Shown here: positions 1 through 55,860 of the stretch, one piece after another
Layout of the letters: every line of letters starts with the position of its first letter
How positions within the stretch are numbered: the stretch's first letter is position 1
The notes under the pieces: model-generated
Databases searched by the model: none
What the model was told of the DNA's origin: nothing
The model's input: the letters and a program-made list of their open reading frames with translations, nothing else
Program-made: the position numbers and the translations under genes
Origin: Diplonema papillatum
Lineage: Eukaryota > Euglenozoa > Diplonemea > Diplonemida > Diplonemidae
Direction: 5' to 3'
DNA: 64,000 nt
NCBI GenBank assembly: GCA_030068145.1
Contig: JAPJBO010000029.1
Coordinates: 124,001-188,000, forward strand

Positions 1-2445
1 ACTCGGTTTCGAAGGCAACTCTCTGAGTTCGTCGATGACTTGCTGCTTTGCATCAACGAGAGCACACTGCTCTTGGAAGTCACGGAACAGTTCTTCGAAC
101 TTCTCCTTCGGAACAGTTTCCTCGTCAGATTGTCGTACGTCTTGGCCTTCAGACTCCTCAGCGAAACTCGGTTTCGAAGGCAACTCTCTGAGTTCGTCGA
201 TGACTTGCTGCTTTGCATCAACGAGAGCACACTGCTCTTGGAAGTCACGGAAGAGTTCGTTGAACTTCTCCTTCGGGACAGTCTCCTCGTCAGACTGTCG
301 TACGTCTTGGCCTTCAGACTCCTCAGCAAAACTCGGTTTCGAAGGCAACTCTCTGAGCTCGTCGATGACTTGCTGCTTTGCATCAACGAGAGCACACTGC
401 TCTTGGAAGTCACGGAACAGTTCTTCGAACTTCTCTTTCGGAACAGTTTCCTCGTCAGATTGTCGTACGTCTTGGCCTTCAGACTCCTCAGCGAAACTCG
501 GTTTCGAAGGCAACTCTCTGAGTTCGTCGATGACTTGCTGCTTTGCATCAACGAGAGCACACTGCTCTTGGAAGTCACGGAACAGTTCTTCGAACTTCTC
601 CTTCGGAACAGTTTCCTCGTCAGATTGTCGTACGTCTTGGCCTTCAGACTCCTCAGCGAAACTCGGTTTCGAAGGCAACTCTCTGAGTTCGTCGATGACT
701 TGCTGCTTTGCATCAACGAGAGCACACTGCTCTTGGAAGTCACGGAACAGTTCTTCGAACTTCTCTTTCGGGACAGTCTCCTCGTCAGACTGTCGTACGT
801 CTTGGCCTTCAGACTCCTCAGCAAAACTCGGTTTCGAAGGCAACTCTCTGAGCTCGTCGATGACTTGCTGCTTTGCATCAACGAGAGCACACTGCTCTTG
901 GAAGTCACGGAACAGTTCTTCGAACTTCTCTTTCGGAACAGTTTCCTCGTCAGATTGTCGTACGTCTTGGCCTTCAGACTCCTCAGCGAAACTCGGTTTC
1001 GAAGGCAACTCTCTGAGTTCGTCGATGACTTGCTGCTTTGCATCAACGAGAGCACACTGCTCTTGGAAGTCACGGAAGAGTTCGTTGAACTTCTCCTTCG
1101 GGACAGTCTCCTCGTCAGACTGTCGTACGTCTTGGCCTGCAGACTCTTCAACGAAACTCGATTTCGAAGGCAACTCTCTGAGTTCGTCGATGACTTGCTG
1201 CTTTGCATCAACGAGAGCACACTGCTCTTGGAAGTCACGGAAGAGTTCTTCGAACTTCTCCTTCGGAACAGTTTCCTCGTCAGATTGTCGTACGTCTTGG
1301 CCTTCAGACTCCTCAGCGAAACTCGGTTTCGAAGGCAACTCTCTGAGTTCGTCGATGACTTGCTGCTTTGCATCAACGAGAGCACACTGCTCTTGGAAGT
1401 CACGGAACAGTTCTTCGAACTTCTCCTTCGGAACAGTTTCCTCGTCAGATTGTCGTACGTCTTGGCCTTCAGACTCCTCAGCGAAACTCGGTTTCGAAGG
1501 CAACTCTCTGAGTTCGTCGATGACTTGCTGCTTTGCATCAACGAGAGCACACTGCTCTTGGAAGTCACGGAAGAGTTCGTTGAACTTCTCCTTCGGGACA
1601 GTCTCCTCGTCAGACTGTCGTACGTCTTGGCCTTCAGACTCCTCAGCAAAACTCGGTTTCGAAGGCAACTCTCTGAGCTCGTCGATGACTTGCTGCTTTG
1701 CATCAACGAGAGCACACTGCTCTTGGAAGTCACGGAACAGTTCTTCGAACTTCTCTTTCGGAACAGTTTCCTCGTCAGATTGTCGTACGTCTTGGCCTTC
1801 AGACTCCTCAGCGAAACTCGGTTTCGAAGGCAACTCTCTGAGTTCGTCGATGACTTGCTGCTTTGCATCAACGAGAGCACACTGCTCTTGGAAGTCACGG
1901 AAGAGTTCTTCGAACTTCTCCTTCGGAACAGTTTCCTCGTCAGATTGTCGTACGTCTTGGCCTTCAGACTCCTCAGCGAAACTCGGTTTCGAAGGCAACT
2001 CTCTGAGTTCGTCGATGACTTGCTGCTTTGCGTCAACGAGAGCACACTGCTCTTGGAAGTCACGGAAGAGTTCTTCGAACTTCTCCTTCGGAACAGTTTC
2101 CTCGTCAGATTGTCGTACGTCTTGGCCTTCAGACTCCTCAGCGAAACTCGGTTTCGAAGGCAACTCTCTGAGTTCGTCGATGACTTGCTGCTTTGCATCA
2201 ACGAGAGCACACTGCTCTTGGAAGTCACGGAAGAGTTCGTTGAACTTCTCCTTCGGAACAACCTCCTCGTCAGATTGTTGTACGTTCTGACTTTCAGACT
2301 CATCAACAAAACTCGATTTCGAAGGCAACTCTCTGAGTTCGTCTATGACTTGTTGCTTTGCGTCGACGAGAGCACACTGCTCCTGGAAGTCGCGGAAGAG
2401 TTCTTCGAACTTCTCCTTCGGAACAGCCTCATCTTGCACCGACTC
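1..2445 (-). repeat. Near-identical 165-bp (55-residue) coding tandem array
   Basis: Fourteen to fifteen units with a 165-bp period continue past the left edge. In the gene's frame each unit reads DEETVPKEKFEELFRDF, then QEQCALVDAKQQVIDELREL, then PSKPSFAEESEGQDVRQS. Sequence differences fall into a few fixed types (EQ or EE; ELF with Phe or Asn before it; Ser-Glu or Ser-Lys). Degenerate units extend rightward at 2,610-2,900 and near 3,130, so the array grew from an older single copy. Long open frames on the plus strand here are shadows created by the period being a multiple of three. Confidence 0.93.
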
Positions 2446-5400
2446 AGTTGATTGTACGCTTCGGAACACGTCTTCCACAATGTTGTTGACAACGACTGTA
2501 GTTTCTGCATCGAGCTTGCCTTCAGCGCCTTCCTGAAACAGCTTGATGATCTGTTCCTTAGCTACGTGGAGCGCGGGAGCAGAGGTTGTGGCCTGTTGTG
2601 AAGTCGAGAGCTTTTTTTCTAAGTCTTCGATTACTTGCTGTTTTGCTTCCGCAGCAGACCACTGCTCTTGGAAGTCACGGAAGAGCTCGTCAAACTTGTG
2701 CTTCGGTACAGTCTCTTCCTCGGAAGAGGTTGCTTCTCGCACGTTCTGACCTTCAGACTCCGCAACGATACTGGGTTTCGAAGGTAGCTCTCTGAGCTCG
2801 TCGATAACTTGCTGTTTTGCGTCAACGAGAGCACACTGCTCTTGGAAGTCACGGAAGAGTTCGTTGAACTTCTCCTTCGGAACAGTCTCTTCTTCGTGGT
2901 ACGCAGGCCCGGTTTCCTGCACGGTGCGGAACACGTCTTCCATGAGGTTCTGGACGACGACTGTCGCATCCGCATCGAGCTTTCCTTCCGCCCGTTCCGC
3001 CAAAAGCTTGCAAATCTGTTCCTTTGCCTCGTGGAGGGCAGGGGCCGCTGAAGTAGTTCTCGTAGCTGCGAGCTGCTCGTTGAGCGCGTCGATGCGCAGC
3101 TGTTTCTCCTCCACAAGTGTCCACTGCTCTTGCAGGTCGCAGAAGACTTCGTCGAACTTTTCCTTCGGGACCGCGTCGGGCAGGGGAGCATCCTGCAAGC
3201 TGTGGAAGGCGCTGGCGACGAGATTCTGCACCGCGATCGTCGCCTCGGCGTCCAGCTTACCTTCGGACGCCTCCTTTTCGAGGAGCTTGCTGATCTGCTC
3301 TTTCGCCTCGTGCAGGACGGGGTCGTGGGATGCGGCGAGCTGTCGTTGAAGTTCTTCGATGAGTTGCTGCTTTTGGCGCACGACGACGTCGCTGCTGGCA
3401 CGCGCGTCTTCAGACGAAGCGGCCTCGCTGATGCACACAGCTTCCTGCATGCACTGGAAGACCTCGTCCATGAGAGACTTGGCGGGGGCGGATGACCCGG
3501 CGTCCAACCGCTGGCTGATCATATCCTTTGCGGCGTTGAATGTGCGGCGCAGGTCGACAGGGGTCTTTTGTAACTCAACGACTTCTGCTTCGAGGTTCTG
3601 AATCCGGGCGCGGAGGTTATCTGAATGGTCTTGCGGGGACGGTCGATCGGAGATCGTGGTCCCTGACCGGGAAGCGATGTTGAGAATGGTTTGCTCGCTC
3701 GCCTCGAAGAGATGCTTCGGGGTCACGGCCGGCGTCGCGTCTTCGGTGAGGGAGTCGGCGCAGCAACCCTGGCTAGGGGGGTTCGACGCTTCGTCCGCGA
3801 GGACCGGATCGGTCAGCACGGCCGAAGACGAGAGCCACGCAGCGTCGCCGCCCGCCAGCGGCGTCTCGGCCTCGTTGATCTGGGCGAGGAGCTGGTCCAT
3901 TTGGGACGCGAACGCCGACGCATCGCCGGCGTCGGTCAGGCTGTCCTTCAGCAGCTTCGCCACCTTCCCGCGGAGCGCTTTGATGGCCGTTTTGAACGGC
4001 GAGTTGGCCGCGTCGGCGCGCGCTGCGAGCTCCGCCTGCAGCAGGTCGATCTTGGCCTGCTTGAGCGCGACGAGCGAGCGCTGGCGGTTCAGCTCGTTGA
4101 CGACGTCGTCCAGCGGGGTCGCTGACGGCGTGAAGGCGGTCACGGTCTGCGGGTGCTTCGCGTCGAAAACCTCGTTTTCGAGGGCTTCGACGCGCGCGTC
4201 CGCGTCGCGGAGCTGCCGCCGCAGCGCCTCGATTTCCGCGGCCGCGGCGGCGAAGTTGTCGCGGGAGGAGTCGAGGGATGCGTTCGCCGCGCCGAGGTCG
4301 GCGGCGGCCGCGGCCAAGTCGCGCCGGAGCTGCTTTTCGACCTCGCCGTCGAAGAAGGACTCGCCGCCGGTGGCGGATTCGGCTTCTTTCGCGCGGGTCC
4401 GGTGCTGAGCAAGCTCTTCGTCCTGCTTGAAGACCGACTCCCGCAGCGTGTGCACCTCCGCGGTCAACCGCAGAACCTCCGACTTCGCTGTGGCGAGCCC
4501 CATCTTCCACTGCTGCGCGTCCACCAACACCTCGGCCAGCGCATCGCACGACACTTTTCGGCGCATTGCCTTACTTTCGCCGCAGCTCGACGCCCCGCTC
4601 TCCGGGCTCGCTGCCTCCGAAGCCTCCGCCGGCTCCGGCGCGAGGCCGAGGCGGACCAGCAAGGGGGCGAAGTCGATGTCCGACAGCACGCTCTCGCCGA
4701 TGGAGATGAGGTCGCGCTCCTCGTCGCTGTCGCCGGCCTGGGGGGACTGCGGGAGCTGCCCCGCGACGGTTCCCGCGATGAGGCTGCGAACGCTGGAGAG
4801 CTCGATCTTCTGCTTCGCGTCGGTCAGGTCGCGGTTGAGGAGGGCAACCCTGTCCTTCAACGACGCAGCCTCCGACTTCGCGTCGTCGAGCTGGTGCTGG
4901 AGGGTCGCTTTGAAGGCGACGTCATGCTGCGCGGCGTTGATCTCACTCGTGAGGAACGCCAGCGACTCCTTCTTCGCCTGGCTGTTCGGCGACGAAGGCG
5001 ACATCGGAGGGGACAACGGCTCGAGCGAAAGGTCCACATCCGCCGAGCGAGAGTAGCTGGTGGACGTGATCAACGTGTGGTGGGTATCGCCGGGGGCGGG
5101 TCGGGTGGAGTGGGCCGGCGTGGCGTTCGCATTGGACGGGGTACGGCAAGGCGTCGACGTGACCCTGGCCCGGGTTGACGCGGCGAGGAGGGAGATTCGG
5201 GTTTCGGCGACGTCGAGGCTGCTTTTGAGCTCGGTCACTTCGTACTCGCTCTGCTCCAACGCGACCGAGGCGTTCGTGTGCGCGCTCTCCAAGACTCGCA
5301 CGCGGGCTTGCGCCTCGGCCAGCTGCTCTAGCAACCCATCCTGGGTGACGCGGGCGACCGCCAGCGACTCTTTGTTCGCCTTCGCTTCGAGCAACACCCT

Positions 5401-8400
5401 CGCGAGCTTGACATCCGCCGGTTCCTCATCCTCGCCCGGCTCTCCGCTGTCTTCGCCACCGCCGCTTGCCGCTGAGCTCGCGCGTCTCCCCATCGGATCG
5501 GGGTTCAGCCCCAGCTTCGCAAGCAGCCCGCCGAAGTCTGCCTGCGGGAACAGCCCCGGCTCGCGGTCTTCGGCGGAAGCTTCGTCGGCGCTGTCGGCGG
5601 CGGCGGGGGGCGGCGGCTGCGGCCGCGCCTGGGTCACGGTCTGCCCAGCGACGGTCTGCAGGATCTGCACCCGGGTCTCCGCGAGGGCGAGTTTCTCGGC
5701 GAGGCCGGCGTTCATGTGCCCTGCCTCCGCCGCCGCCCGGGCCGCACGCTCCAATTCCGCGACGCGCGCGCGGAGGTCGGACGCGGCGGCTTCGAGGGCC
5801 AGCCGCTGGGCGTCTTGCTCGGCGGCGCGTTCCTTCGCGCGCGCCAGGTCGACGATCGCCGTCGCGAGCTTCGCCGCGAGGTCGAACGACTCCTCGGCGG
5901 GCGGCGGCGGCGGCGGGGTAGCCGGGGCTTTGTTCGAAGGCATCGACGGCGATTTCAGTCCGAACCTCGCGAGCAACGAGCCGAAGTTCGCCTCCGGGAG
6001 CCCCGTGGCTTCGGCGCTTCCGTCGGAGCCGTCGTCCTCGGGGGATTCTTCGTCGTCTTGGCGGTGCTCGGTCGCGCGGCCTTCGACTGTTTTCAGGATC
6101 ATGTGCCGCACGTCGGACATGCGCGCCTGGTCCTGCAAACTCATCACCTCTCTTTTCAACGAGGAAACCTGCTCAGCGGCGGCGCGGAGCTCGCAGACCT
6201 CGGCTTCGAGCGCCGCTGCTTTCTCCTTCCACTGCGTGTTCTCCTCAGTGAGGCTGGAGACCGCCTGTTTGTTCGACTTCGCCTCCTCGAGGGCTACTGC
6301 GAGTTGCTCGGGACCGGGGGGGGTTGCTTCCTCGCGGGGATGGCCGGGATGCCGTTGGTCGGCGAGGCCGAGCTTCTGGAGGAGCGGTCCGTAGTCGACG
6401 TCTTGCATCGCGGGCTGTTCGCTCGCGGCGGGGCGGTAGAGTGGGTCGATGGACCGGATCCGGTCGTTCGCGGCGCCGTGGATGGTGGCTCGGATCTCAG
6501 CGGACTCCAGTCGCGCCTTCGCGTCGCGGTTTTCGACCCGCAGCTCGTGGACGGCCTCCCGCAGGCTCTCGCACTCCGCGCGGACGTTCTCCGCGAGGCT
6601 GAGCTCGCTGCGGAGGCGCGCCTCGGTCTCTTGCAGGGCGTGCAACGCGGCTTTGGTGTGCTTCGCCTCGACGAGGGCCCGCGCGAGCAGGTCGGTCGCG
6701 TCCGCAGGCGACACCTCGGGAGACGTGTGAGACGGGACGGACAGCGGCGATGGGCGCCGGGATGATCCTCGCGACGGAGCCGGCGACTCGATTTTGCGCG
6801 GAGGCGCGAGCCCGAGGCGATCGAGCAGCGAGTCGAAGTCCGCCTGCGGCAGCTGCGCTTGGTGCCGCGTGTCGGAGGAGTCCAGCAGCAGCTCGCCGCT
6901 GGGCACGTTCACGGACGGGTTGACCGTCGTCGTGATGAGGAGCCGCGCCTCGCTGAGCTCGAGGGCCTCCGTCGCCTCGCGGAGGAGCGCGTGCGTCCTC
7001 GCGGCGTCCGCCCGCACTTCTTCGACGGTCGTGCGGAGTTCGGCGATCTCGTTGTTCTTCGCCTCGGCGCCCGGCGCGAGCTCCGCGCCGGCGGCGTCCG
7101 TTTCGAGCGTCGCGATGCGCTTCTCCTTCGCGCGGACGTCGGCCCGAAGCCGCCGCTCCACGTCACGCGCCTTCTGCAAGCCGGACTGGTCGTCCCTTGC
7201 CTTCAACAACAGCTTCGCGAGCTTCCCGCTGGTGTCGAGAATCGAGCTGCTCGGGTTGACGTCCGACAGCGGGTCGTCCCCGGAGAGCGGGGGTGTGGTG
7301 CTTGCGGTGGCTGGGTTGCCGGCTTGGAACGGTGCGGTCGAAGGGTCGAGCCCGAAGGAAATAGACGACAGCAGCGCGTTGAGCTCCGCGTCGGGGGAAG
7401 CGGTTGACGTGGGTTCGGTGCTGCGGCTCGTCGTGTTGAGGGACTGGCTGACGGAGTCGACGCCTTTCCGGGTTTCGAGGTACTCGATCTTCTCCGTGAG
7501 GTCGCGGATGGTCTGCTCGTGCGCGGCGGACTTGCGCTCTTCCTGCAGAAGCGACGCCATGATTGAGTCCATCTCCCGCGACAGCTCGTCGACCTTCTCC
7601 TCGGCTTTCACGAGGCGCTCCTCCTCCGTCAGCACGACGGAAGGCTCGTCGGTGATGATGTCCGCGTGGCCTACCGTCACTTCCCCGCCGATGGTCACTT
7701 TTCCCTTCTTTCGCACCCTCGGCGACGTTGGCGGAGACAGCTCGTCTCTGTTCCCTCGCAGCTTCTTGATGCGGCGCCGGGCCTTCTTCGACTTGCTTTC
7801 GGATGCCGGCGTGGACGACCGCGAGGAAGACGTGTCTTTCGAGGCGTTGAGGACGTCGGTTTCGGCGATCACGGACGGAGGGGACACCGTGAACTCGGGC
7901 GGCGGCTCCGCTTTTTCGATGCCGACGGTCGCGAGGAGGTCGGTGATGGACCCCACAGGGTCGTTCCTGCTTTCGAATGTCTCGCGCTTGAGCTTCGCTT
8001 CGAGGACGGTGGAGTCTAGGCTGGTATCGCCGCGTGGTTGAGCGCCGAGGTCTTCCACCTCAGAGGAGCTGCTCAGCGCGCCTTGGCTGAATCCAGACGC
8101 AGGGGACAGCGTCGACGCGATGGCCAACTTCGTCTCGACGAGCTCGAGCTTGCTCCGCAGGTCGGACAGCTCGCTCTTGTGGCAGTCCAGCGCCTCTTCG
8201 ACGCCGACTTTTTCGGTCAGCCTCCCCTCTACGGTTTCGAGCTTGCTCGTGAGGTCCTGCACCTTGGCTCGGTCGTCCCTCGCCCGGAGCAACACCTCGG
8301 CCAGCTGCTGCGACCGCATCGTCCGCATACCGGGATCCGTCGGCCGCTCCTCGACCACGAAGTCCTCCACCGGCGGCCCCGTGTTCTTCGGCTTTTTGTA

Positions 8401-11400
8401 CGTCGCTGGCTTCTTGAAAGTCCGGGTGATGGTCTTCGTGCAGTCCCCGTCGGTCGGGAGGTTGAGCCGGCTGAGGAGGTGCTCGAGGCTCCCCGGCGCC
8501 GGCGCTTCCTTCGCGGGCGGCGGCTCCGCAGCAGCCTCCGGCTCCGCCGGAGGCTCAGCGACTGGTGAGTTCGACGAAGTCGATTGGGGCGCGGCGAAGG
8601 TTGGCGTCGGGAGGTCGGGGGACGGCGGTTCCAGGGGGTCGAGCTTCGCCAGCATCGCGCGGAGCCGGTCGGACTGCCCAGAGCGGGCGGTCTGCGTGGA
8701 GGACCCGTCGTTGCGCGGAGAGGAAGGGGGCGGGAGCTCAAGGGCGACGAGGGACTCGGTCGCTGCGACGAGCTCCAGCCGGCGGTGCGCATCGCGGGCT
8801 TGCTGCTCTGCGAGCCTGAAGCCGTCGTTTTCGCGGCGCAGGGCCGCGTTTTCGGCGGCAAGCCTCTCCACGGTCGCCGCCTCGGCCCGCAGCTCCACCA
8901 TCGCGACCGCGAGCCGGTGCTCGACGGACGCTTCGGCGGGGTCGCAGGACTCCTTCCCGTCGAGCTTTTGCACCGCGACCGCCAGGTCACGGTCGGCCCG
9001 CGCGAGAGCGGCCTCCGCCTCGTCCACGGACGCTTGGAGCGCCGCGGCGCGGGTCTCGGACGCCGCGAGCTTTTCTTCAGCAGCATCCCGGGCGGCCCGG
9101 AGTGCGGCGGCGGAGGTGTGGGTGTCGCGAGCGGCGACCAACGCGCTCGCCAGGATTTCGACTGGGTCGGCGGCTTCGCCGGTCTCCGGCAGGAGCTCGA
9201 GGCGGGAGAGGAGCGGGAGAAGGTCGGCTGCGTCGCCGGCTGAAGAAGAGACGGCGGCGCGGGTCTCCGCGAGGGCGAGCTCCGCGGTCAGCGCCGCGCT
9301 GCCGGCCCGCAGGTCCGCTTCGGCGTTCTCCGCGCGCGCCGCGGCGGCCTCGGCGGCGGAGAGCGCGGCTTCGAGCTGCGCGACCTTCGCATTCGCGTTC
9401 TCGACGCTCTCCTTGTGGTCCCGCAGCTGGATCAGCGCGCGGGCGAGCTGGTCGTACGCGTCCTCCGCCTGGCTGGGATCAGCCTGCACGCTCACCGCCT
9501 CGTCGATACCGAGCCGTTTGAACAGCGGGCCGAAGTCCGCGTCTCTCATCCCGCCGGACACCGCGGCCGACCTCATGGACCCGCCCAACGGCTCCGACTC
9601 TACTTCCGAGCTACCCCCCGCGTGGCCCTGGGCGGCCTCATGGAGGACGTTCCGGGTCTCCTCCACCTCGAGCTTGCGTTGCGCTTCGCGGAGTTCCAGC
9701 GCGAGGCGGTCGCGCTCGGTTTCGAGCTCCGCGACGCGGGCGTGCGGCGAGGTTTTCGCGCGCTTTTCGGGCTTCGCCGCACGCGGCGGAGGCGCGGACG
9801 ACGACACGGCCGCCGGCGCCTTCTTCGGGGAAGGCATGCCGAGCTTGAGGAGCAACGGGCCGAAGTCGGTGTCGAACGGGTTGTGGTCCGCATCGCCGGG
9901 ATCGCTGGGTTCTCGGTCGGCTTCGTCGCCTTCCGACGAGGGCGGCGTCGCTGTGCCTGCGCGTCGCTGTGCCTGGGCCGTGAGTTTTTCGACGGCGGCC
10001 TCGAGCTCCTCGGCGCGGGCAACCGCGGCCTGCAGCGACTCTTTGTCGTGCTTCGCTTCGAGCAGCGCCCGGGCGAGTTGATCGGGGCCCGACATCGGGG
10101 GCTCCGCCGGGTTATCCGACCCGGGAGCCTCTTCGACGCCGCCGACGGGCACTCCGAGTTTTCGGGGGGGGGCGATGCCTAGCTGGGCGAGGAGCGGGCC
10201 GAAGTCCGTGTCTTCCAGCACCGCGGCCTGCGCCGCGGCCTCCGATTCGTGGTCGGCGGGGTGGTCCGAATCGGGTTCGGGCGGCGGCGGGTGCGCCGAG
10301 AGCGACCCGCTCACGACGCCGACGAGCATGTTCCGCGTGCGGAGCAGCTCCGCCTCCTCCTTCAGCGATCGGACGAGGCGAAGGAGCTCGTCGACCTCCG
10401 CTGTTTTTTCGCGGAGGGCCGGTCCGAGGTCCGGCTGCTGGCTGCCGCCGCGCAGGGAGTCGAGCTCTCGCTGGAGGGATTTGACCTTTTTCCGGAGCTT
10501 GACCTGCTCCGTGTGCGATGCGTCGAGGTGCTCGATGGGCGCCGGCGAGCTGCCGGCCTCCCACTGGTCGCGCGCGGCGGCGAGGAGGGCGCGGAGTTGG
10601 CGGATCTCGGCCTCGGCTTCTTCGCCACTCGCTTCGGCGGCCCGCAGCTCCTCTCGCAGCGCGGCTGTTTTCCGCGCGTGGAGCTGCTCGACGGCGGCGG
10701 CCTGCTCGCCGGGGCTCGCGGGCGGCAGCGTCGGCGACCCCCGCGGCGCGAACGTCGCGTCCGGGTCGACTCCGTTGCGGTGGAGGACGCTGAGGAGGCG
10801 GCTGATCTCCGCTTCCGCGGCGCCGAGGGCGGAGTTCTCGGCGATGAGGTCCTGCGCCAGCGCGTTGTCCCTCCGCGTTCCCGAGCCGTCGACCGCGAGG
10901 GACGGCGGCGGCGTGTGCGGGTTGTGGGTGAGGTCCTGCAAGTCGCTCGCCGACGACGACTGCCGGAGGCCCACCATCAACGCGCGATCCTCTGACGCCC
11001 TCGGCGGCGACCGACCCCGCCCGGACGAAGTGTCCCTCCTCGCCAGGCCCGGCGCGTCGTCGTTCTTCTTCGACGACGCTTCGAGGCGCTTCTGCAGCGC
11101 TACGAGCGGGTCTTCGCCTTCTTCTTCTTCGTCGTCTTCGTCGCGTGCGAGCGGCGCCGGTTGCGGCTTTCCGACGGATCGCGGGCGCGCCGGCAGGCCG
11201 AAGGAGACGTCTGTCTTCTTCGACGATCCTTCGAGGCGCTTCTGCAGCGCGACAAGTGGGTCTTCGCCTTCTTCTTCTTCGTCGTCTTCGTCGCGTGCGA
11301 GCGGCGCCGGTTGCGGCTTTCCGACGGATCGCGGGCGCGCCGGCAGGCCGAAGGAGACGTCTGTCTTCTTCGACGATCCTTCGAGGCGCTTCTGCAGCGC

Positions 11401-40258: not shown

Positions 40259-40316
40259 CTGTCAGAAGTAGTATTTCATTCCTCCGTGGTCTAAACCGTG
40301 GTCGTTTTTTTTTTTT

Positions 40317-43765: not shown

Positions 43766-43909
43766 ATACTCGCGTAGTGTACCAGCAAGCTGCCACAGCA
43801 CGTGCAGTGGACCGGAGAGGTCTTCACGGAACAGGAGGGGGATTTCCACTTTGGCATACCAAATCATCAAAAGGCCGGTTGTTCCTTCATGCGAAGCCTT
43901 CGTGAGTGC

Positions 43910-46900: not shown

Positions 46901-48112
46901 AGTGGACAGGTGATCGACAATGCGGTACACGAGCCGCTGCGTTTGTGGCTCTTCGGATTGCGTAGCCTCAGCAATACTCTGTTGGAGGGCTTTTTTTGTT
47001 CCAGTGGTCTTGATACCAATGGCTGCTGCTTCGGCCTTGAGCTGCTCAAGTGTCTTCTTCACTGTATCCGACGTCGGCGTGGGAGGCTGATCGTCGTCCG
47101 CGTTTGCAGGTGTAGCAGGTGCAGGACCTACATTCGCTACAGGGTCTGGGCTGTTTGTTGCAGCGCACGGCACATGTTCTGGACTTACGTCGGATTGTTG
47201 TTGTTGGGCGGGGGAGCATTTGGTGCACTTCACGTCTTTGAAAAGGCAATAGAAAGCTTTTCGTTTCTGTCCCGCGAAGGACCGATTCCATCCCGAAGCC
47301 TCGGGAAGCCAACTCAAAAGCTTTTGGTGAAAAGCCTTTCGGCGAGCCTTCTCTATCCCCAAGAGGTCAAAAAGCTGCTCAGCACAGAGACTGTGTTGCT
47401 CGCCTTTCGCTTGGACGATGGACGCAACCGCAGCATTGAATGACAGCGCACCATCAATCGAGTCGGCGCAGCCAGCACAAGCGGCCCCAACAACGAACAA
47501 GCAGTACAGCTTGCCGCGTCTACTCCAGCCTTCGTGCAGTCCTTCGCTGCGCCACTTCGAAACGCTTTGCGAAACCAAATTTGCCTCGCGACCTTCCATT
47601 TCCAAGAGCGCGAAAAGCTCTTCGTGGTTGAGGTGGTGCTGAGGGCCGTGTTTACAAACGGCTTTCTCAACTGCAGCATTGAACAGCTGGACGGAGCAGG
47701 TATCCACTGTAGTAGTGGTGTCTCCTGAACTTGCCGCACCGAACTCGGTCTGCACCTGCCGAAGGACTGCGTCCGCGGACCACTTCTTGCGCTTCACAAG
47801 CCCCGAGGCCCTTTTCTGCATGCTCTGATACGTTCCTCGTATCGGCTTCAGCAGCCTGCGTCCAACTTCTTCCCACGTTGCCACCTGGACACCGGGCAAA
47901 ACGACACAGAATTTCACTCCTTCGTTGTTGGAGCTAATTCCCAAGTTTGGGTTGCTTGCGGCAGCAAGCTCAGCCTGAAAGGCTTGCGCGTCCTGTGTTT
48001 GCGAACCACGCAAGTCGCGGATACGAGCAAGCACCCTTTCCTCACTCCATTCAACGCACTCTCCAAACGTGCCGTCTGCAACAGCTTCAATGAAGAAGGC
48101 GGCATCCGTCAT
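43910..48112 (-). CDS. hAT-like transposase, 1400 residues
   Basis: One uninterrupted frame from ATG (48,112) to TAG. Residues 139-215 and 220-300 are two copies of one module (FNAAV, E(E/Q)LF(A/D)LL, a Trp, K..YCLF, C-x2-C). A SAP-type DNA-binding motif follows at 354-384 (LEQLKAEAAAIGIKTTGTKK). A C-x2-C...H-x5-H zinc finger lies at about 607-655 (CLAC, then RHRNSNAHR). The catalytic core has LILDGTT near 799, CSDSGSN near 872 and NVAESFF near 1196, in the order D, D, E of RNase-H-fold hAT-like enzymes; the last sits in the dimerisation region (SRYNSNVAESFFSKAKQR). The C-terminus is Ser-rich with a basic end that may be a nuclear localisation signal. It cuts and joins element ends in the nucleus. 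It is about twice the length of common hAT transposases, mostly N-terminal. Resembles the lineage with a TTF-like finger; exact family unassigned. Confidence 0.82.
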   Translation of the reverse strand: MTDAAFFIEAVADGTFGECVEWSEERVLARIRDLRGSQTQDAQAFQAELAAASNPNLGISSNNEGVKFCVVLPGVQVATWEEVGRRLLKPIRGTYQSMQKRASGLVKRKKWSADAVLRQVQTEFGAASSGDTTTTVDTCSVQLFNAAVEKAVCKHGPQHHLNHEELFALLEMEGREANLVSQSVSKWRSEGLHEGWSRRGKLYCLFVVGAACAGCADSIDGALSFNAAVASIVQAKGEQHSLCAEQLFDLLGIEKARRKAFHQKLLSWLPEASGWNRSFAGQKRKAFYCLFKDVKCTKCSPAQQQQSDVSPEHVPCAATNSPDPVANVGPAPATPANADDDQPPTPTSDTVKKTLEQLKAEAAAIGIKTTGTKKALQQSIAEATQSEEPQTQRLVYRIVDHLSTACPDLRRELEAEFASEKRLVSGSHTQTTHQHGLVCGYNACFLGEKLKRIPFSRADNASLPELYTWFRGTSPNMLGMSEKRWESIKEHLRVGEEPPALTTFEVQAFACKNGLKFISKDLGSVSSFRFQALRTNDVCVVNLRLPSSSHLLNHFFCVSFTAAPDTKAMLEEKKSTQQPFYPAPLFRPQLSPFARINRETERVPGGYMCLACHHTHVFIWGSLSSGVAAAFAKGTAGPYQTDEAARTALSRHRNSNAHRVSLWVVRYGAFVIVGYLTVAAAAIAFRVVPANFRSDAHPQAGNTFEVSLKAELAETPYLSEERLQRFFNLHVPMFIRVCEGVSHRSSVRQIRADRLRGIDIPKKYNTTSHVSEMVGIWASIAQVRIAKELSVSSSFVLILDGTTLKHAMQMEVYVVILRYFVSSLCAVKETALGLVGFEASDDTDGNTIFLKSRAMLADFGVAAQQITATCSDSGSNLAGHITGVYGLLKKDFNPQCARVPDFSHRLETELERAFDSSVVEEITEAILTMEANLRTSGKLYRRLRRFAKLQGFAAGPKPSLHCSIRWLPKTFRLWEKAAALWPLWKMFLEQRSRDWHSADAKKGKDNLAAKRKELLGVFGKERRAQQFQQWYPVLRMLRNISLASQHQEPTVLHLQFRLSRARMAIEGMTDGNENKRRLAKVAKALEAVEEKIKKDDHAVALSLILDVQKMQVLSGADLKAYGNEEYAYLAAFVGRFEASSVQKDWQDIKILAVQFKDLGWNAWTGVFATLKEQGNQRAIDVLALVHTHSRYNSNVAESFFSKAKQRVGCNRPHLVVETLSNELILAEQGKGMTDEEVSETCTLGAKIWHSRKNRRHGGKTGGKKKTDRADAFEQVNGDMRTEYSGCSVVPSFAPWSGNETWSAMSFANASESSDSPNASLPSSSVSSQSSSSSRSSSSGSTTSSASSSTSTEASVERQVPSRPSEPGAKLPLPVRLKPAAKVSARLLDSMHEPAPKRARK

Positions 48113-48639
48113 GTTTGTTGTTGTGTATTTACTGTATCTCAGGCTCCCTGCGGGAATAAATAGCTACCGAGAGCAGAGATGATTAATCCTTGTTTTAGTG
48201 TACATACTAAATACCGAAAGGTTTCCTCGGCCCTCGACTCTTGTTTTTTTAGCCCGTTTCTGGAACAGCGCTCGCGGGACGGGCACTCCGCGGATGCCAA
48301 GATTAGGGTAAGGATAACCTCGCAGCGAAGCGAAAGGAGCTGCTTGGCGTTTTTGGGAAGGAGCGCAGGGCTCAGCTCCTTGTGTCCACTGCGGCAGATC
48401 GTCGTCCGTTGAATGCCTCCGCAAAGTCGGCATTGCCCAAGCTGCCGCCCTCCGTAACTCCTTTGTCGTGCCAGCCTGACCTGGCCAGCGGCAGTTGGGG
48501 AGTCGGTCGCTTGACACCGGGTGACCTGCCAGCCATGCAGGAGGGGGGGGGGGGGGGGGGGGGGTCCCCCCCCCCCCACCACCACCCGCACCCCCTGACC
48601 GCGATCCGTAACATGTAACAGCCCTTAATAAGCACCCTG
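47908..48639 (-). repeat. Right inverted arm of the hAT-like element
   Basis: The partner of the left arm. It contains the first 69 codons of the functional transposase, its 5' leader, the copied internal transposase segment, and a G/C homopolymer hairpin near 48,541-48,580. The element's promoter should lie here, between about 48,113 and 48,540; no core element can be picked out with confidence. Confidence 0.85.
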
Positions 48640-48867
48640 GGGGGGGGGGGGGTCAGCCGGCTGATGGATGGATGGATGGTTCTTAACAAGATGCCTGGGG
48701 GGGTTGGGGGAGGGCATGCATGGCTTCTTTCGTGTGCACTTTAACAGTTTGTTGCTTGTGTTGGCAGGCCGGGTTCGCAACAATGTACGACCCAACACGA
48801 AGATCTCACCACCAGGTGAGGGGTGCATAATATTCTTGCGCCCCCCCACGTCTTGCAGGGGTTTTGC

Positions 48868-49532
48868 GCGAACGTAAATTTGCATCGCTGGGGGTCACAT
48901 TTATCGTACCTCCGAGATCTCTTGCTTTAGCCAAGTGGCCCACTTTTAGTGACTAATGCATCAGCCACAGCTGCAGACTTTCCAATCTCAAACTATTACG
49001 GTGTAACACAGTACGCTATGGCTAGAGGATGGCGAGGAGAAGAAGCAGCACCGAAGAAGAAGGAGGAAGGCGGAGCCGGAGGGCCCCGCGACAGCGCCGA
49101 GACAGGCGAAACGTGAGAACGTGGTGCTCGTTCTGCCGGAAGCAGAGGAAGGCGAGCGAGAACCCGCAACATCAACGCCGACATCAGCAGCGAAGGTCGG
49201 GAAGACGGCGCCAACGCCAGCGAAGAAGCGGCAATCGGACTCCGCGGCGGAGCCGGTACCGAAAAGCGAAGAAGCAGAAGTCGACGCGCAACCGATGAAC
49301 CTCGACGAGCAATCGAAGAAGAAGCGAAGCACCAAACGCGCTCCTGAGCGCGACGATCAAGACGAGCTAAAGAGGCAAAGCATAACACATCACGTGCGAA
49401 GAGATAACCGCGCCGTCGGCGATGCAGATTATCGCGACAGATTCTTTGCATTCTAACCCAAACGCCATGGCTCTATCACGGTCGATTCGGAGTTCCCCTC
49501 GAACTTCATAGAATTGCTTGGCTGTCTACAAC
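48868..49532 (+). repeat. Dispersed repeat A, right copy, interrupted
   Basis: The direct partner of 41,020-41,250. It is continuous to about 49,021 and resumes at about 49,467 with GGCTCTATCACGGTCGATTC. The intervening 445 bp have no counterpart in the left copy. Confidence 0.8.
49022..49466 (+). pseudogene. Coding-like insert in repeat A (possible captured exon)
   Basis: One plus-strand frame is open from 49,022 to a stop at 49,456, about 144 codons without an ATG near its start. It is highly charged: Glu/Lys/Arg-rich, with AKVGKTAPTPAKKRQSDS, DEQSKKKRSTKRAPERD and an end VGDADYRDRFFAF. Codon-like purine asymmetry differs from the surroundings. It looks like the C-terminal tail exon of a nuclear-type basic protein captured into a repeat; no parent gene is recognised. 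The opposite strand is also open, which weakens the case. Confidence 0.35.
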
Positions 49533-49534
49533 GA

Positions 49535-49970
49535 TGGTTTAGGCGGTTTCTTTTTGCTTGTCCTTCCCGCCAGGTGCCCCCGCCCCTTCTATACGCAAAT
49601 GAACGGCAACCGGGAAGCGCCGTCGCGATGCACGTGTGGGGCAGATGAGCAAACCTGGCGGACAGCTAGGGGAGCGTAGGTCGAGCCAGCCGGCAGCGCT
49701 GCGGATGCGGGTGAAGGAGGACCGGGACGCTCCTGTGGGGAGGTTTGATCGGGGTGGTGGAAGGAAGCAAAGGAAGCGCCCTTTTTTTCCCCCCAAGACT
49801 CCCGCATGTCCCTATCCCATTTCCCTGTCACCCGCAGCCTGCGGCCTCTGGCGACGCTTTGCTCTCTGCCCGCACACGTGACATCCCGCCGTACACTCTG
49901 TCTAACATCTGCGCACGGAGGGAGTCGATCTCCTGTAGGGGAGGGTGGTTTTGTACAGAATTGCTTCTAG
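49535..49970. other. Unassigned intronic stretch
   Basis: Nothing that I can recognise. Frames are short and broken on both strands. Confidence 0.5.
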
Positions 49971-49975
49971 ACAAT

Positions 49976-50335
49976 CAGAATTGTCTAACGGTTGGATTGT
50001 TCACCCACTACCAGGGAACGTGAGCTGGGTTTTAACCGTCGTGAGACAGGTTGGTCTTACCCTACTGATGGAGAGAGAGCCCATCGGGCCAGCGCATTCC
50101 GACAGCAATACGGGGTAGTACGAGAGGATCTCCTGTTTCTAGTCCCTGGTATCTGCGGTTTGTTCGGTCGGACAGTGCCACACTCGTGGTTCCTTTAATC
50201 CCACGAGCACTTCGCCATTCCTTGATACTCGGTGTGTTTAGGAGGCTGGAGGGGAGAAACGATATACACCACAAGTGGGTCTTCCCGGTTGAACGCTTAC
50301 ACCCGGCAGTAAATTTAGATTTTACCTGTGTTCTA
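49976..50335 (+). rRNA. Large-subunit rRNA 3' fragment (pseudogene or retrocopy)
   Basis: GGATTGTTCACCCACTA, GGGAACGTGAGCTGGG, CCGTCGTGAGACAGGTT, TTACCCTACTGATG and the sarcin-ricin loop AGTACGAGAGGA (50,117-50,128) occur in the order of the eukaryotic nuclear 28S 3' region. GGTATCTGCGG and CGGACAGTGCC follow, then probably the last helices ending near GGTTGAACGCTTACACCC. It departs from the usual sequence in several normally invariant places (GGGTTTTAACC for GGGTTTAGACC; no AACC after the loop), and the 5' part of the gene is absent, so it is not a working rRNA gene. Whether the source is nuclear or organellar is not certain; nuclear fits better. Confidence 0.7.
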
Positions 50336-50420
50336 CGTGGACTACAGCACCTCTTTTCTCCTTCCCGATTCTGCAACTGGTGGCGTGTGGTGAGTATTTC
50401 CTACAATGCAGGTGCTTATG
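50288..50420 (+). repeat. LSU-tail repeat, copy 2 (joined to the LSU fragment)
   Basis: From GGTTGAACGCTTACACCCGG to CCTACAATGCAGGTGCTTAT followed by gcgcaaagtaaaa. It is the only copy here still attached to upstream rRNA sequence, which suggests the family derives from an LSU transcript. Confidence 0.6.
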
Positions 50421-50597
50421 CGCAAAGTAAAACGTGTGTGTATGATTCGCAGACCAGCAGCAGACAGACGACGACCAGTGTTTGCATCGCCAAGATTCGG
50501 AATAATATATGCACAGCAGAAGGAGAAACAGGCAGCGTTCAGCCAAGAGGGGCTGACAAGCACGTTTTCGCCTTTCGCATTTCTTGCGACAAATGGT

Positions 50598-50830
50598 ACC
50601 AGGGAAAGCCTGCTACACGGGAGCCAAGCTTCACGTGTTCGGCGGTACTGCAGAGCCACGGGCCTGCGGGTCAAGTGGCTACCGATTTCCCAACTAAAGC
50701 GTCAAGGCGTGGCGCACCGGGGCTTGGCGCTTGAAGACAAGCTCGTTGAGACGGTCAGCCACAGGGCAGAGCGGACGGGGTAGTAGCACTGTGCTGCCTC
50801 CGACACAAGCCTTGAGCCGGTCCATCCCCT
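50598..50830 (+). repeat. Dispersed repeat B, copy 1
   Basis: Shares TACCAGGGAAAGCCTGCTAC, GGGAGCCAAGCTTCACGTGT and later GACGGTCAGCCACAGGGCAG-like sequence with 56,908-57,190 and, in part, with 57,938-58,075. The shared part continues after an interruption near 50,995 as CAAGCTGTGGTTGACCGTCA. No coding function is evident. Confidence 0.75.
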
Positions 50831-50857
50831 CTTGATAGACCGCGATAGACCGAAGAA

Positions 50858-50945
50858 TACAGCACCGGGCAATTCGATGCAGCTCTAGGGGCTAGGGATG
50901 GACCTGATAGACCGTGGTGGACCGTGATTCACTGTGATAAACAGC
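50858..50945 (+). repeat. Dispersed repeat C, copy 1
   Basis: Matches 59,943-60,028: AGCACCGGGCAATTCGATGC through GGACCGTGATTCACTG, with a few substitutions and one indel. Confidence 0.8.
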
Positions 50946-51136
50946 GGCAGGCACTTCGATGCAGTTTCAAGAGATAAGGGACGGACCGGCTCAAGCCTTG
51001 CAAGCTGTGGTTGACCGTCACGTTCCTGGACCCGGAGCGGCTCTTTTTCTTCTTCTTTTCTTCTGCGCCGCCTTGAGTATTTCGCGACCACGCAACAAAA
51101 GAGCCGGTGCTCCAGTTAGAGAAAAGGGAACTGTAC

Positions 51137-52273
51137 CCGTTTTGCGTCGTCTAGTGCAGTTGTCAGCTTCGCGATTTGTGCGTGGAGCGGGAGATCCGCC
51201 TTGACGGTGTCGGACGCGTCGTGAAGAAGTGCGTCGAGGGACGCTTGGAGGGCGCAACCTCTGCCTTCTTCCTGCTGGAGGAGGTCTTTGAGGCCGCGGA
51301 CGGTGTTCTGGGAGGAGTGGAGGGAGGATTCGAGGAGATGCACCCTCTGGCCGTGCCGGGCCGACTCCGTGAGCGCGCGGGCGTGGCTGGACGCGAAGCC
51401 CGAGGCGAAGGTGCTGCTTAAAGACGACCGCAGGAGGCTTTCGGCGTTCTCGACCAACCTCCGCGCCACGGGCTCCGCGGAGTGCATCAAACTCGCCAGG
51501 GAGTGGGTCAACGGCGTCTGGGAGGACGCCTCGCACACTTTCCGGATGAGCGAAGGGTCGGCGTCGTCGGATATGCGAACCCACACGTCGCCGTCGCTCC
51601 AGCACACCGCGGACGGTTGGTCGGCAGGGCCTGCACCCAGCCGGGCGGCGCAACCCAAAAACGAGAGCGCCGAGCCTTTCCCGGCGAGCTCGAACTTTTC
51701 GGCTGTGTCCTGGAACTGCACCGCCGTGCCTTCGATGGCGAGCAGAGTGCCGTCGCGGGCGCGCCAGGTGCCTTGAAGGGCGGGAATGGTGATGGGCTGC
51801 GGCGTTTCGCGCACGAAGCGCGCGAACGGGTGGTCGGCGGTGTGGGCGGCCGCGAGGGCGGCGCGCTGGCGGTGCTCTTCCGAGAGGAGGAGCTGCTGGA
51901 GGAGGTCGCGCCAGAGCTTCGCTGCGGCGTCGAAGCGCGCGGCGGTGACGTCCTGCTGGGAGTCTTGCTTGACGAGCTGTATTGACAGCGACTCTTGGTT
52001 GGACCGCTCGTGCTCCACCTGCTGCTCCTTTTCGAGCAGGGCCTCCTGCAGCGCAGTGATCTCCTCGCGGGCCGCAACCAGCGCGACGGCCTCGGCAGAC
52101 GCCGCCGGATCCTCGGCTGCACGCCGCTTGGCCTGCTGTCCCTTCGCGTCCTCCATCTCATGCTTTGCCTTGACCAGATCCTTCTCCACCTCCTCTCTCC
52201 TCCCGCGCTCCTTCTCCAGAGCAGCCTCAACTCGTTCCTCCGACGCCTTCACCGCCTGCAACTCAAGCTGCGC
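51137..52273 (-). CDS. Giant gene, exon 2: coiled coil with an embedded beta module
   Basis: The exon is 1,137 bp (379 codons), phase 0 at both ends. It begins AQLELQAVKASEE after acceptor cccgcacag and ends TTALDDAKR before gtacag. The first 130 or so residues form highly charged coiled coil. A compact non-coiled stretch follows (51,566-51,800), starting with GTWRARDGTLLAIEG and ending with WSDGDVWVRI. This pattern of a GTW strand, alternating hydrophobics and a terminal SDGDVW word is a beta-rich module that I have seen in predicted proteins of algal protists but cannot assign to a named family. The exon then returns to helix with His/Ser-rich segments. Open sequence upstream of the acceptor (to 52,564) reads as non-coding and is excluded. 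Confidence 0.82.
51566..51800 (-). other. Beta-rich GTW...SDGDVW module inside the coiled coil
   Basis: About 78 residues that break the coiled coil: a GTW start, short strands with alternating hydrophobics (LLAIEG, VQFQDT, FELAG, LSFLG) and a closing WSDGDVWVRI. It looks like one small antiparallel beta unit. Function unknown. The boundaries are read from composition only. Confidence 0.55.
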
Positions 52274-52849: not shown

Positions 52850-55800
52850 CTTCCTGAGCCCAGCCTGCAGCGATGCCAGCCGCTCCTCCGCTTCCTCGGT
52901 CTGCTCGTCTTTTTCGACGAGCGCGCGGGTCAGCGCGAGCGACTCCTCCTCGATTTCATCCCGGCTCCCTTCCATCGCTTCGAGGCGCTCCTCGGCATAG
53001 GTCAGCCGCTGCGACAGGCTGCGGGATCGGTCCTCGGACGTTGCAAGCAGCGCTTCGAGACGGTCGACTTCTGCGAGGAGGGCGTCGCGGTCAGAGTCGA
53101 CCCGGGAGACCGAGGTTCGGGAGCCGCCGGGTTGCTCTGCGGGGGTGACATTTATGGCCTCAAGGCGCTCTTCAGCGTCGCGCAGCCGGTTCTCGGACGT
53201 TGCAAGCTGCGCTTCGAGATGGTCGACTTCTGCGAGAAGGGCGTTGCGGTCCGAGTCCATCCGGGAGACCGAGGTTCGGGAGTCGCCGGGCTGCTTCGCG
53301 GGGGTGACGTTTATGGCCGCAAGGCGCTCTTCAGCGTCGTGCAGCAGGTTCTCGTACGTGGAAAGCTGCGCTTCGAGCCGGGCAACCTTTGCGAGGAGAG
53401 CGTTGCGGTCCGAGTCCATCCGGGAGACCGAGATTCGTGAATCGCCGGGCCGCTCTGTTATAGCTTCGAGGCGCTCTTCGGCATCGCTCAGCCGCTGCGA
53501 CAGGCTGCGGGACCGGGTTTCGGACGTTGCAAGCTGCGCTTCGAGCCGGTCGACCTTTGCGAGGAGGGCGGCGCGGTCCAAGTCCGCCCGGGAGACCGAT
53601 AATCGGGAATCGCTGGGTTGCTCACCTGGGGTGCCTTCTACGGCCTCAAGGCGCTCTTCCGCGTCGCGCAACCGGTTCTCGGACGTTGCAAGCTGCGCTT
53701 CGAGACGGTCGACCGTTGCGAGGAGATGGGCGCCGCGGTCCGAGTTCACCAGGGAGGCGGATTGCCCTGTTTTTCGGTCGGCACTTGGAGACCGGCGGAC
53801 GCGCGCGAGCTGGTCGAGAAGCCGGGTGTTCTCCGACTGGAGGCCTGACGCCTCTCCGGCGAGCTCCGCGCACGCCTGCTCGAGGTGACCGTTTTCCGCG
53901 CGCAGCAGATCGACCTCTTCCGCGAGCTCGGCCGCGTCCAGGTCCCCCAAGCCCCCGGGGGGGGACTGCGGGGCAGGGGCGGCCAGTCGGGCGCATTCGG
54001 CCTCTTTTTCGGCCAGCGCGGCTCCAAGCGCGTCGAGCTTTCCCCTCAGCCCGAGGTTGACAGGGATGCCGACTTGGTGCAAAACTGCCGAAATGTCCCG
54101 GCGGACGCGGTGCGTCTCGCCTCCGTGGGAGGCCGGCAGGTCGTCTTGTGGGAGGGTGTCGATCCTCCGCGCGATTTGAAGCAGCGCCGCGCGCTGCGTC
54201 TCCGTCTCGGAGGAGAGGCGGGTTATTTCCACCTCGAACGCGGCCACGTGCGCGGAGGCCACGGTGGTCCGGTCGGGTAGCCAGTAGGTCCGGGTCTTGA
54301 CCTCCTCCGCCGTCTCGTGGACGGTGGCGAGCTCCGAGCGAAATTCCGCCGCAGCGCCGGCGGCCGCGGCGCGCTCCAAGCGGCCGCGGCCTTCCGACAG
54401 CGCCTTGTTGTCGGCCTGCAGCCCGCGGATCCTGGCGTGCAGCGCTTCTTCGACTTCGCTCGCGCGGCCCCGTTCATCCTCCGCGGCTGCGTGTTTCTGG
54501 AGGTACCCTCTCTCGGCGGCCAGCTCGGGTTGCGCGAGGAACACTTCGCCGCTGGAAGGATCGGCGTTGGACCCGGTTTTCCGCAGGTCGGAAAGCCCGC
54601 CGGTCAACCGAGTCAGCACGCCGCTGAGTTCTCGAATCCCGGCCTCTTTCGCTTCGCCGGCGGCCGCGGCATCGGGGTCAAGCTGCCGCCTGGCTCTCGC
54701 TTCGAAGTTCTCGTCAACCTCGCCTTTGCAGCTCTCGCTCTCCGCGGCGGCGGTCTTTTGGTAGTACCTCCTCTCGGGTGTGCCCTCGTTGAGGAACACT
54801 TTGCCGGAAGGATCGACGTCACCTTTGCAGCTCTCGCGCTCTGCGGCGGCGGTTTTCTGGAAGGAGGACCTCCTCTCATATGTCACCTCGTTGAGGAACA
54901 CTTCTCTGGAGAGATCGACGTTCGAACCGACCCTCCGCAGGTCCGCAAGCTCGGCGGCCGCCCGGGTCAGTTCGTCGCTGAGTTCTCGAATCCTGCTGTC
55001 CTTCGTTTCGCCGGCGGCCGCGGAATCGGAGTCAAGCCGCCGCCTGCTTCTCGCTTCGATCTTCTCAGCCTCGCCCTTGTAGCCCTCGCGCTCCGCCGCC
55101 ACGCGCGCGAGCTTTCTCGCCGCCGCGGCCAGCTCCTCTCGGAGCTGCTCTCCCGCGACCTTCTGCGCGGAGAGCTCCGAAGTCAGCTGCCCGACGCGGT
55201 TTCTGGCCGCGCGCAGCGCTTCTTCGAGTTCCGCGGCCCTTTTTTCGGCGCGCACCCGCGCTTCCTTCTCGGCGGCGAGCGCCGCCCGCAGTGCGCTGTC
55301 GCCGCCGGCGGGCGTTTTGATGCCACGCGTCGGCGACGGCTGCCGGAGGCCCGGGTTGGGTCTGGGGTCGGGAGACGTGAGCCGGCGGTTTTCGGGTGTG
55401 GAGGGGCGCCGGGGGAGGAAGCTGCGGTCGAGGTCCCGCTTCGCGTGGGCGAGCAGCTCCTGCTGCGCGGCCATGAGCGCGGTGTCCCCGCCGAGGCTGT
55501 GCGCGGGCCTCGCCCGCGCCACTTCGTGGGGGCCGGTGAGCGACCGAGCGTGGGGTGCGTTCCCCCGGCGGAGCGGGCTCGCCTGCCGGATGTCGAACCC
55601 GAGCTCTTCCCCCAGCCCCCCCCCCCGGCGTCGGGCGAGTGCGCGCCCGGCGCCGTCACGGTCCGGACAGACGACCCGGTGGACGGCTTTTCGGGCGACG
55701 CCGGCCGCCGCCCCGCGATCCGGCCCCACAGCCGCTCTCGCTGCTCCTGCTGCGCGTGCACGTCGGCGGCCGCCCGGGTGGCCTTGCAGCTCGCGCAGGT

Positions 55801-55860
55801 CTGCGTGAAGGAGAGGTTCTCCGTCGCGCAGTGCGCGCAGCGCCACGACCGGCGCTGCAT
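52850..55860 (-). CDS. Giant gene, exon 1: RanBP2-type zinc finger plus coiled coil
   Basis: The exon opens with ATG at 55,860. Residues 6-25 fit the RanBP2 zinc-finger spacing exactly: W6, C8, C11, N15, C22, C25. These fingers bind Ran-GDP, ubiquitin or single-stranded RNA in known proteins; the ligand here cannot be told. After about 80 residues the frame changes within an 11-base G run (55,616-55,626 on the plus strand carries Cs), and the rest lies in a second frame. The exon is one base short of a codon multiple, as a lost G would produce. The remainder is polar linker followed by coiled coil rich in Ala, Glu and Arg. It includes two related blocks around 54,560-55,080 with the words FLNE and QKTAAAE, and five 53-56-residue repeats at about 52,970-53,760. 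The exon ends at donor aag|gtgtgt. A strong pyrimidine-rich acceptor (ccccacgcag) lies at 55,910-55,919 in open frame, so an upstream exon may exist and the ATG may not be the true start. Confidence 0.82.
52970..53760 (-). repeat. Five coding coiled-coil repeats of 53-56 residues
   Basis: Within exon 1 of the giant gene the pattern VDRLEAQLATSE followed by DAEERLEA and then SRxSVSRxDSDRxALLA recurs five times. Units are 53 or 56 residues; the longer ones carry an extra RSRSLSQRL segment. The spacing keeps heptad phase, and the Ser/Arg-rich SVSRxDS words between helices look like hinge or phosphorylation sites, which is inference. DNA identity between units is high, which implies recent duplication or gene conversion. 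Confidence 0.85.
55616..55626 (-). other. Homopolymer frameshift site in exon 1
   Basis: An 11-base G run (minus strand) sits exactly where the coding frame changes from the zinc-finger frame to the long coiled-coil frame. Adding one G gives a continuous reading from the Gly-rich linker into LGEELGFDIRQAS. A sequencing or assembly length error in the homopolymer is the simplest reading; a real null allele or -1 frameshifting cannot be excluded. Confidence 0.75.

Follow-up and report, generated by a model that had tools for sequence, protein, structure and literature searches.

We propose, at a probability of roughly 0.55, that the marine unicellular flagellate Diplonema (Paradiplonema) papillatum, a diplonemid, has one spliced nuclear gene for a modular protein of about 21,950 residues, most of it coiled coil, and that this protein is probably a very long cytoskeletal tether or scaffold. 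The window, that is, the whole 64,000-nucleotide stretch of DNA that was analysed, corresponds to bases 124001-188000 of contig 29, and negative positions denote bases to the left of it. Flanks of 50 kb on the left and 20 kb on the right were added, so that 134 kb were read in total, with 0 N bases. Genome searches were run on a 271-Mb assembly of 2,910 contigs; the published D. papillatum assembly is given as 280.3 Mb in 6,181 contigs (PMC10161547), so that the set searched is either filtered or differs slightly from it.

A minus-strand gene model that extends beyond the window

A sequence-only reading of the window had described a single modular coiled-coil giant gene of at least 12,900 codons, composed of five minus-strand stretches. 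These stretches are indeed present, at 55860-52850, 52273-51137, 40258-27562, 22440-20126 and 19590-1, and they sum to 12,917 codons, the earlier figure excluding the transposon ORF at 43910-48163 (see below). It had also noted that no stop occurs up to the left edge and suggested extending the assembly leftward to find one. As a matter of fact, the frame stays open to window -10685, and the gene seems to run 33 kb past the left edge. The notion of one giant gene was thus supported, but its size had been understated, with about 21,950 codons in our model versus 12,900.

The model was built with a gene finder that combined a fourth-order coding model with generic splice matrices and was tried under two settings. 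It runs on the minus strand from an ATG at 55860 to a stop at -33038 in 13 coding blocks (E1-E13), and the modelled protein has 21,952 residues and a mass of 2,393 kDa, or about 2.39 MDa. Coding sequence, ~66 kb with ~11 spliced joints, makes up ~74% of the 89-kb gene. E1 (55627-55860) carries the presumed start codon and an N-terminal WxCxxC-N-CxxC zinc-finger motif, in the frame of the ORF at 55183-55935. E2 (52850-55615) is a coil segment with 53-aa repeats, and E3 (51137-52273) begins as coil and continues into a non-coil stretch at 51536-51841. A 10.9-kb intron (40259-51136) leads to E4 (27562-40258), which holds a coil-unit array, one strong LG module and six M50 hits. After a 5.1-kb intron (22441-27561) comes E5 (20126-22440), which is helical and has three M50 hits including a partial one. 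The giant exon E6 extends from 19590 to -10541, its part inside the window being 1-19590. It measures 30,132 nt, its open frame counts 10,120 codons overall, and it contains M50 and LG modules and two blocks of 55-aa repeats. The remaining minus-strand blocks were placed by the gene finder: E7 (-10796 to -11200), E8 (-12868 to -13344), E9 (-14181 to -14879), E10 (-15944 to -16452), E11 (-16984 to -26596), E12 (about -27407 to -28345) and E13 (-29111 to -33038), the ends of the last two being set by hand. No in-frame stop occurs across E3-E13 as modelled, that is, over 20,950 codons. In the intron before E13, at -28835 to -28962 (contig 29: 95038-95165), what looks by eye like a partial and degenerate copy of that exon's 5' part was noticed; it resembles the gene-adjacent repeats described for D. 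papillatum (PMC10161547).

Both ends of the model called for closer scrutiny. The first stretch had been read as a single open frame, which did not hold: it consists of two frames. The best switch points lie at 55614-55625, on a run of 11 G at 55626-55616 (minus strand); ATG 55860 and the zinc-finger motif are in one frame, and from about 55615 on the coding signal is in another. The ten best intron alternatives to such a switch were nearly all GC-AG, with two weak GT-AG pairs. We take the switch as either a homopolymer length error in the assembly or a very short intron. The 3' end at -33038 is doubtful: 24 codons ahead of the stop there is a GTATGC donor (-32967), and the coding signal has already faded near -32838. 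Beyond the stop, at -33779 to about -34026 (contig 29: about 89974-90221), lies what looks like a short coding exon that has an ATG and ends in an AG|GTATGC donor; its phase, judged by eye, does not fit the donor at -32967, and it may be the beginning of a separate gene. Further downstream on the same strand, the next gene that could be recognised encodes a fumarate hydratase (PF05681, E=2.5e-78) at -38815 to -40551 (contig 29: 83449-85185). Under both settings, the gene finder also merged this fumarase gene and low-scoring blocks upstream of 55901 with the giant. Since it swallows a neighbouring gene, the way it chains blocks does not by itself argue for a single gene, and whatever it had added upstream of 55901 or downstream of -33038, including fumarase, was left out of the model.

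Phase-matched joints between the coding blocks

Genes of D. papillatum are reported to be co-transcribed (PMC10161547), and as a reported consequence distinct coding regions become fused in annotation (PMC12817076). With co-transcription and trans-splicing, an AG in front of an exon could be a leader site. Each joint was considered from both sides. The four GT-AG joints of the sequence-only reading agree in phase (0, 0, 1 and 0 on both sides), and the same eight splice sites rank top when donors and acceptors near the coding ends are picked blind to phase. The chance of 1 in 81 attached to this agreement was too strong, because most joints are in phase 0. Over the whole model, sites picked blind to phase match at 10 of 11 joints, among them one 1-1 and one 2-2 pair, the miss being E8/E9; this gives p 1.3e-4 if phases are random and 0.018 with the phase make-up fixed.

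In a leave-one-out analysis, the coding model was trained without the tested block, and coding starts and ends were free to move ~200 nt either way. The modelled frame was the best-scoring of six in all 12 blocks from E2 to E13. Coding started within 16 nt of the acceptor in 11/11 cases and ended within 10 nt of the donor in 9/11, the ends of E8 and E12 lying 54 and 89 nt off their modelled donors. Between each donor and the next stop the coding score was negative (11/11). In seven of the 11 internal blocks (E3, E4, E6, E7, E11, E12 and E13), 22-126 codons of positive score precede the first in-frame ATG; thus, these blocks need an upstream exon. In E5, E8, E9 and E10 the acceptor is followed within 14 codons by an ATG that could in principle be a start. 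Taken together, E2/E3, E5/E6, E6/E7, E11/E12 and E12/E13 are forced from both sides, and E10/E11 more weakly so, while E3/E4 is forced from its downstream side alone and E4/E5 and E8/E9 are the weakest joints. The largest run of blocks in which every joint is forced from both sides is E5-E7, with 10,951 codons, about half of the model.

Module content also links the exons: E4, E5 and E6 have six, three and one M50 hits, respectively, and LG modules occur not only in E6 but also in E4, there with one of 53 bits, indicating that these three exons share modules. An M50 module restored across the E5/E6 splice had been considered as support for that joint, but it was downgraded, as it scored only 4.4 bits and ranked 9 of 22 spanning matches over 260 site pairs.

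All 11 internal acceptors are CAG, with an upstream A content of 0.29-0.62, and all 11 donors have a G before the GT; the scoring favoured acceptor C and donor G, so that these two counts are not independent, whereas A-rich tracts were not favoured. These sites fit the CAG intron ends, CA-rich motifs and A-rich tracts reported in other Diplonemidae (PMC12621601). The presumed leader site at 55901 is pyrimidine-rich (0.81), versus 0.52 for the candidate leader site of the next gene, which is not pyrimidine-rich; as a mark of spliced-leader addition this is a hint only, the criterion resting on that single site. A spliced-leader core, searched with one mismatch allowed, was found 661 times in the genome versus 0 in the reversed control. 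The dinoflagellate spliced leader gave 0 hits, and a dinoflagellate origin of the DNA, suspected at first, was rejected. A splice control at six other loci yielded three genes and two introns, neither of which resembled the introns of the giant.

Transposon, satellite and other contents of the introns

The E3/E4 intron carries a transposon of ~5.6 kb on the minus strand (42991-48583), with G/C-rich inverted ends and a SAP-like ORF of 1,417 aa (43910-48163). All 33 scored genome copies of this ORF, the present one included, are 100% identical over 1,417 aa, and a first look gave 2,939 candidates in the genome. Three of four copies compared align over 5.4-5.6 kb, and no seed was found in the fourth. 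We rejected this ORF as an exon, since its identical genome copies mark it as a transposon and its coding score is -0.28 per codon, unlike that of the gene. The same intron holds, at 49956-50052 on the plus strand, a sequence resembling eukaryotic LSU rRNA (67.9 bits), possibly a dispersed, diverged copy. A search of the genome with an 18S end pattern gave three hits, and no recognisable rRNA was found with Rfam at the two loci checked. The E4/E5 intron contains a 57-bp satellite (22879-26745; 68 copies, 97% match). A hAT-like remnant suspected near 27078-27221 had no Pfam match and was dropped. Transposons in long introns are reported as normal for D. papillatum (PMC10161547).

Searches for relatives and known domains

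The Pfam scan covered E2-E5, E6 up to ~180 aa from its end, E11 and E13. Within the scanned parts it gave no credible relative, and PDB searches returned a single match at E=0.88. The non-coil stretch of E3 is likewise without known relative. No Ig, Fn3, kinase, plakin or KASH domain and no PKS/NRPS catalytic domain was found in the scan of E2-E6, E11 and E13. Several matches were set aside as cross-matches to coil or repeat: Wtap and LIP-1 in E2, ATG16 in E13, and Spectrin, HTH_8 and SANT_DAMP1_like in E6. DDE_Tnp_1_7, GBR2_CC and DUF1667 in E6 pass the whole-protein cut-offs, but no single stretch passes and they lie in repeats or coil. An Amidase_2 match of an ORF over E3 fell below the cut-off and was also set aside. 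The N-terminal zinc-finger motif scored 14.8 bits against PF00641 (E=0.017), below the cut-off of 27; its Cys-Trp-Asn spacing fits that of a RanBP2-type motif.

When the genome was searched with parts of E4 (746 aa) and E11 (1,333 aa), nothing but the queries came back. Besides itself, E3 matched two sequences weakly (at 32% and 29% identity), and E5, again besides itself, gave one 37-aa match within its intron tail. Hence, no close second copy of the four searched segments (E3, E4, E5 and E11) was found in the assembly searched. A search for relatives of E5 on viral contigs led nowhere. The gene is not mentioned in the literature searched, and a hypothetical-protein entry in annotation tables may exist.

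Purifying selection and a predicted modular, coil-rich protein

Because repeats occur within the giant exon, selection could be measured without relatives. In the true frame, dN/dS was 0.09 for the 55-aa repeat of E6 (20 copies), 0.15 for its cousin (14 copies) and 0.08 for the near-identical LG modules (5 copies), whereas shifted frames of the 20-copy and 5-copy sets gave 0.94-6.8. By these sets, purifying selection acts in the giant exon E6. For the E2 repeats and the E6 50-aa unit, whose copies are too few or misaligned to be telling, frame-0 values were 0.38, 0.70 and 0.61 and shifted frames gave 0.74-1.35.

The module profiles were self-seeded and iterated on the same protein, and weak matches in coil are cross-matches. 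From the N-terminus onwards, the 53-aa repeat profile has five hits in E2, and 28 of 34 hits of the E4 coil unit lie at aa 1517-4041, followed by the ten M50 hits at aa 4733-6452. E6 starts with a helical stretch, and a second CxxC pair lies at aa 7878-7900. Eighteen of 45 LG hits reach at least 40 bits, one in E4 and the rest at aa 9509-14728. The 55-aa repeats form two blocks of 28 and 19 hits, with array copies ~95% identical at 165-bp spacing. Towards the C-terminus, 16 of 36 coil-unit hits fall at aa 19144-20667; this region overlaps the one at aa 18925-20209 that holds 13 of the 17 CxxC motifs of the whole protein. Repeats are of several types, with spacings of about 53, 55, 100 and 165-170 aa.

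In all five arrays tested, the hydrophobic period was 3.42-3.54 residues, and periodicity exceeded the 5% null in 41% of 626 protein segments. By this measure, heptad-like hydrophobic periodicity extends over long stretches, as in long coiled-coil proteins. The highest 19-residue hydropathy, 1.74 at aa 6253, falls in a helical stretch and is borderline for a membrane span; the modelled protein has no convincing predicted membrane span.

Alternative explanations

The blocks might instead belong to two or more neighbouring genes of one polycistronic unit, split by spliced-leader trans-splicing and wrongly chained, and the likeliest break points would then be E4/E5 and E8/E9, followed by E3/E4. 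The co-transcription and the merged annotations reported for this species (PMC10161547, PMC12817076) speak for such a case, as do the swallowed fumarase gene, the early ATGs of E5, E8, E9 and E10, and stops 6 codons past the donor in E3 and 18 codons past it in E4. We nevertheless hold it to be quite unlikely, as the score turns negative past every donor, seven of the 11 blocks score positive ahead of their first ATG, all but one of the 11 joints match in phase with 1-1 and 2-2 pairs among them, and E4, E5 and E6 have M50 and LG modules in common. Even if every weaker joint broke, E5-E7 would hold together. A decaying pseudogene, to which the frame switch at the G11 run and the transposon and satellite in the introns might point, is very improbable: dN/dS between repeats is 0.08-0.15, E3-E13 is free of in-frame stops as modelled, and intronic transposons are the reported norm in this species (PMC10161547).

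A single gene could also be real while the assembly has collapsed or expanded its near-identical 55-aa arrays, in which case the true length would be off by hundreds of residues. We regard this as possible, though on the unlikely side. The high identity and regular spacing of the copies would favour such errors, the G11 switch reflects either imperfect assembly here or a missed small intron, and repeat collapse is suspected for FAZ10 of Trypanosoma brucei (PMC5358337); against it, PacBio long reads were reportedly used (PMC10161547) and the 134 kb contain no N. As to function, the giant might be nuclear rather than cytoskeletal, for example a lamina- or pore-associated coil protein, which seems to us unlikely. 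Large coil lamina proteins do occur in trypanosomes, NUP-1 being one, and the N-terminal zinc-finger motif is presumably RanBP2-like. Yet its match is far under the PF00641 cut-off, and kinetoplastid proteins of similar size class are described as cytoskeletal (PMC5358337).

Proposed mechanism and significance

On our preferred reading of one gene for a cytoskeletal tether, the transcript would probably receive a spliced leader near 55901, and cis-splicing of GT-AG introns would join the blocks at every joint. The coil arrays would supply length; a fully extended coil of the modelled length would measure about 3.3 micrometres, as an upper bound. Between the coil units there are short linkers, and the repeated LG and M50 modules could be docking or folding units that gather partners along the tether. 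By binding metal, the CxxC-coil array towards the C-terminus may hold adjacent strands together like a clamp. Rad50 has a metal-binding CxxC hook between paired chains, and CxxC pairs at coil starts could likewise hold metal between two chains of a putative dimer. Candidate locations would be the flagellar pocket, the feeding apparatus or the microtubule corset. In diplonemids the microtubular corset is described as dense and the flagellar pocket as subapical (PMC8061765), and with these structures a tether could work.

With ~22,000 codons and a 30-kb exon, such a single gene would push splicing, translation and folding to an extreme. It would also offer a sequence for asking what the megadalton proteins on gels of kinetoplastid cytoskeletons are. 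D. papillatum cells are reportedly haploid and amenable to gene replacement (PMC10161547), and tagging has been reported as well (PMC12324889).

Comparison with known giant proteins

The giant, as modelled, would share a megadalton modular tether-like build with titin, plectin and nesprin, but no Ig, Fn3, kinase, plakin or KASH domain was found in its Pfam-scanned parts. Titin and PKZILLA are longer than the modelled giant. Among huge eukaryotic proteins, the cytoskeleton is reported to be the largest functional class, and Euglenozoa to be among the phyla in which a considerable fraction of proteins exceeds 5,000 aa (0.11-0.40% over four phyla; PMC11573180). Within D. papillatum, the kinesin-domain gene DIPPA_22195 is comparable in having long introns with transposons; it spans 186 kb with 20 introns and is named the largest known Diplonema gene by span (PMC10161547), whereas the giant spans 89 kb, of which ~74% is coding.

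The closest likeness is to the giants of the kinetoplastids, the sister group, where megadalton repeat proteins tether the flagellum and FAZ10 was proposed to tether flagellar and cell-body structures (PMC5358337). FAZ10 (Tb927.7.3330), ClpGM6, Ps3500 and a T. cruzi family of 700-2500 kDa are Euglenozoan and megadalton-sized, like the modelled giant, and the flagellum attachment and flagellar-pocket giants as described share with our model the coiled coil and near-identical repeats; they are described as lacking a membrane span (PMC5358337), and our model has no convincing one. The sequence-only reading had held proteins of this size to be rare in microbes, which needs qualifying in view of these reported cytoskeletal proteins. 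FAZ10 of T. brucei differs in being described as an ORF of 13 kb that looks intronless and contains 52 repeats of 35 aa, with a predicted mass of 502 kDa and an apparent one of ~2000 kDa on gels, versus ~66 kb of coding sequence, ~11 spliced joints and other module types in our model. The 35-aa repeats of FAZ10, tens of near-identical copies in two coil domains, have no counterpart of that length in the profiles made. Our best reading is that the giant may work like FAZ10, as a cytoskeletal tether, and we make no claim that it is a relative of FAZ10. More speculatively, and with considerable doubt, no longer coiled-coil protein may have been described so far; the giant could then serve as a ruler or rope made of a single molecule, with a row of CxxC clasps towards one end cross-linking strands, and could supply a gene sequence for the kind of 1-4 MDa cytoskeletal proteins seen on gels of Euglenozoa.
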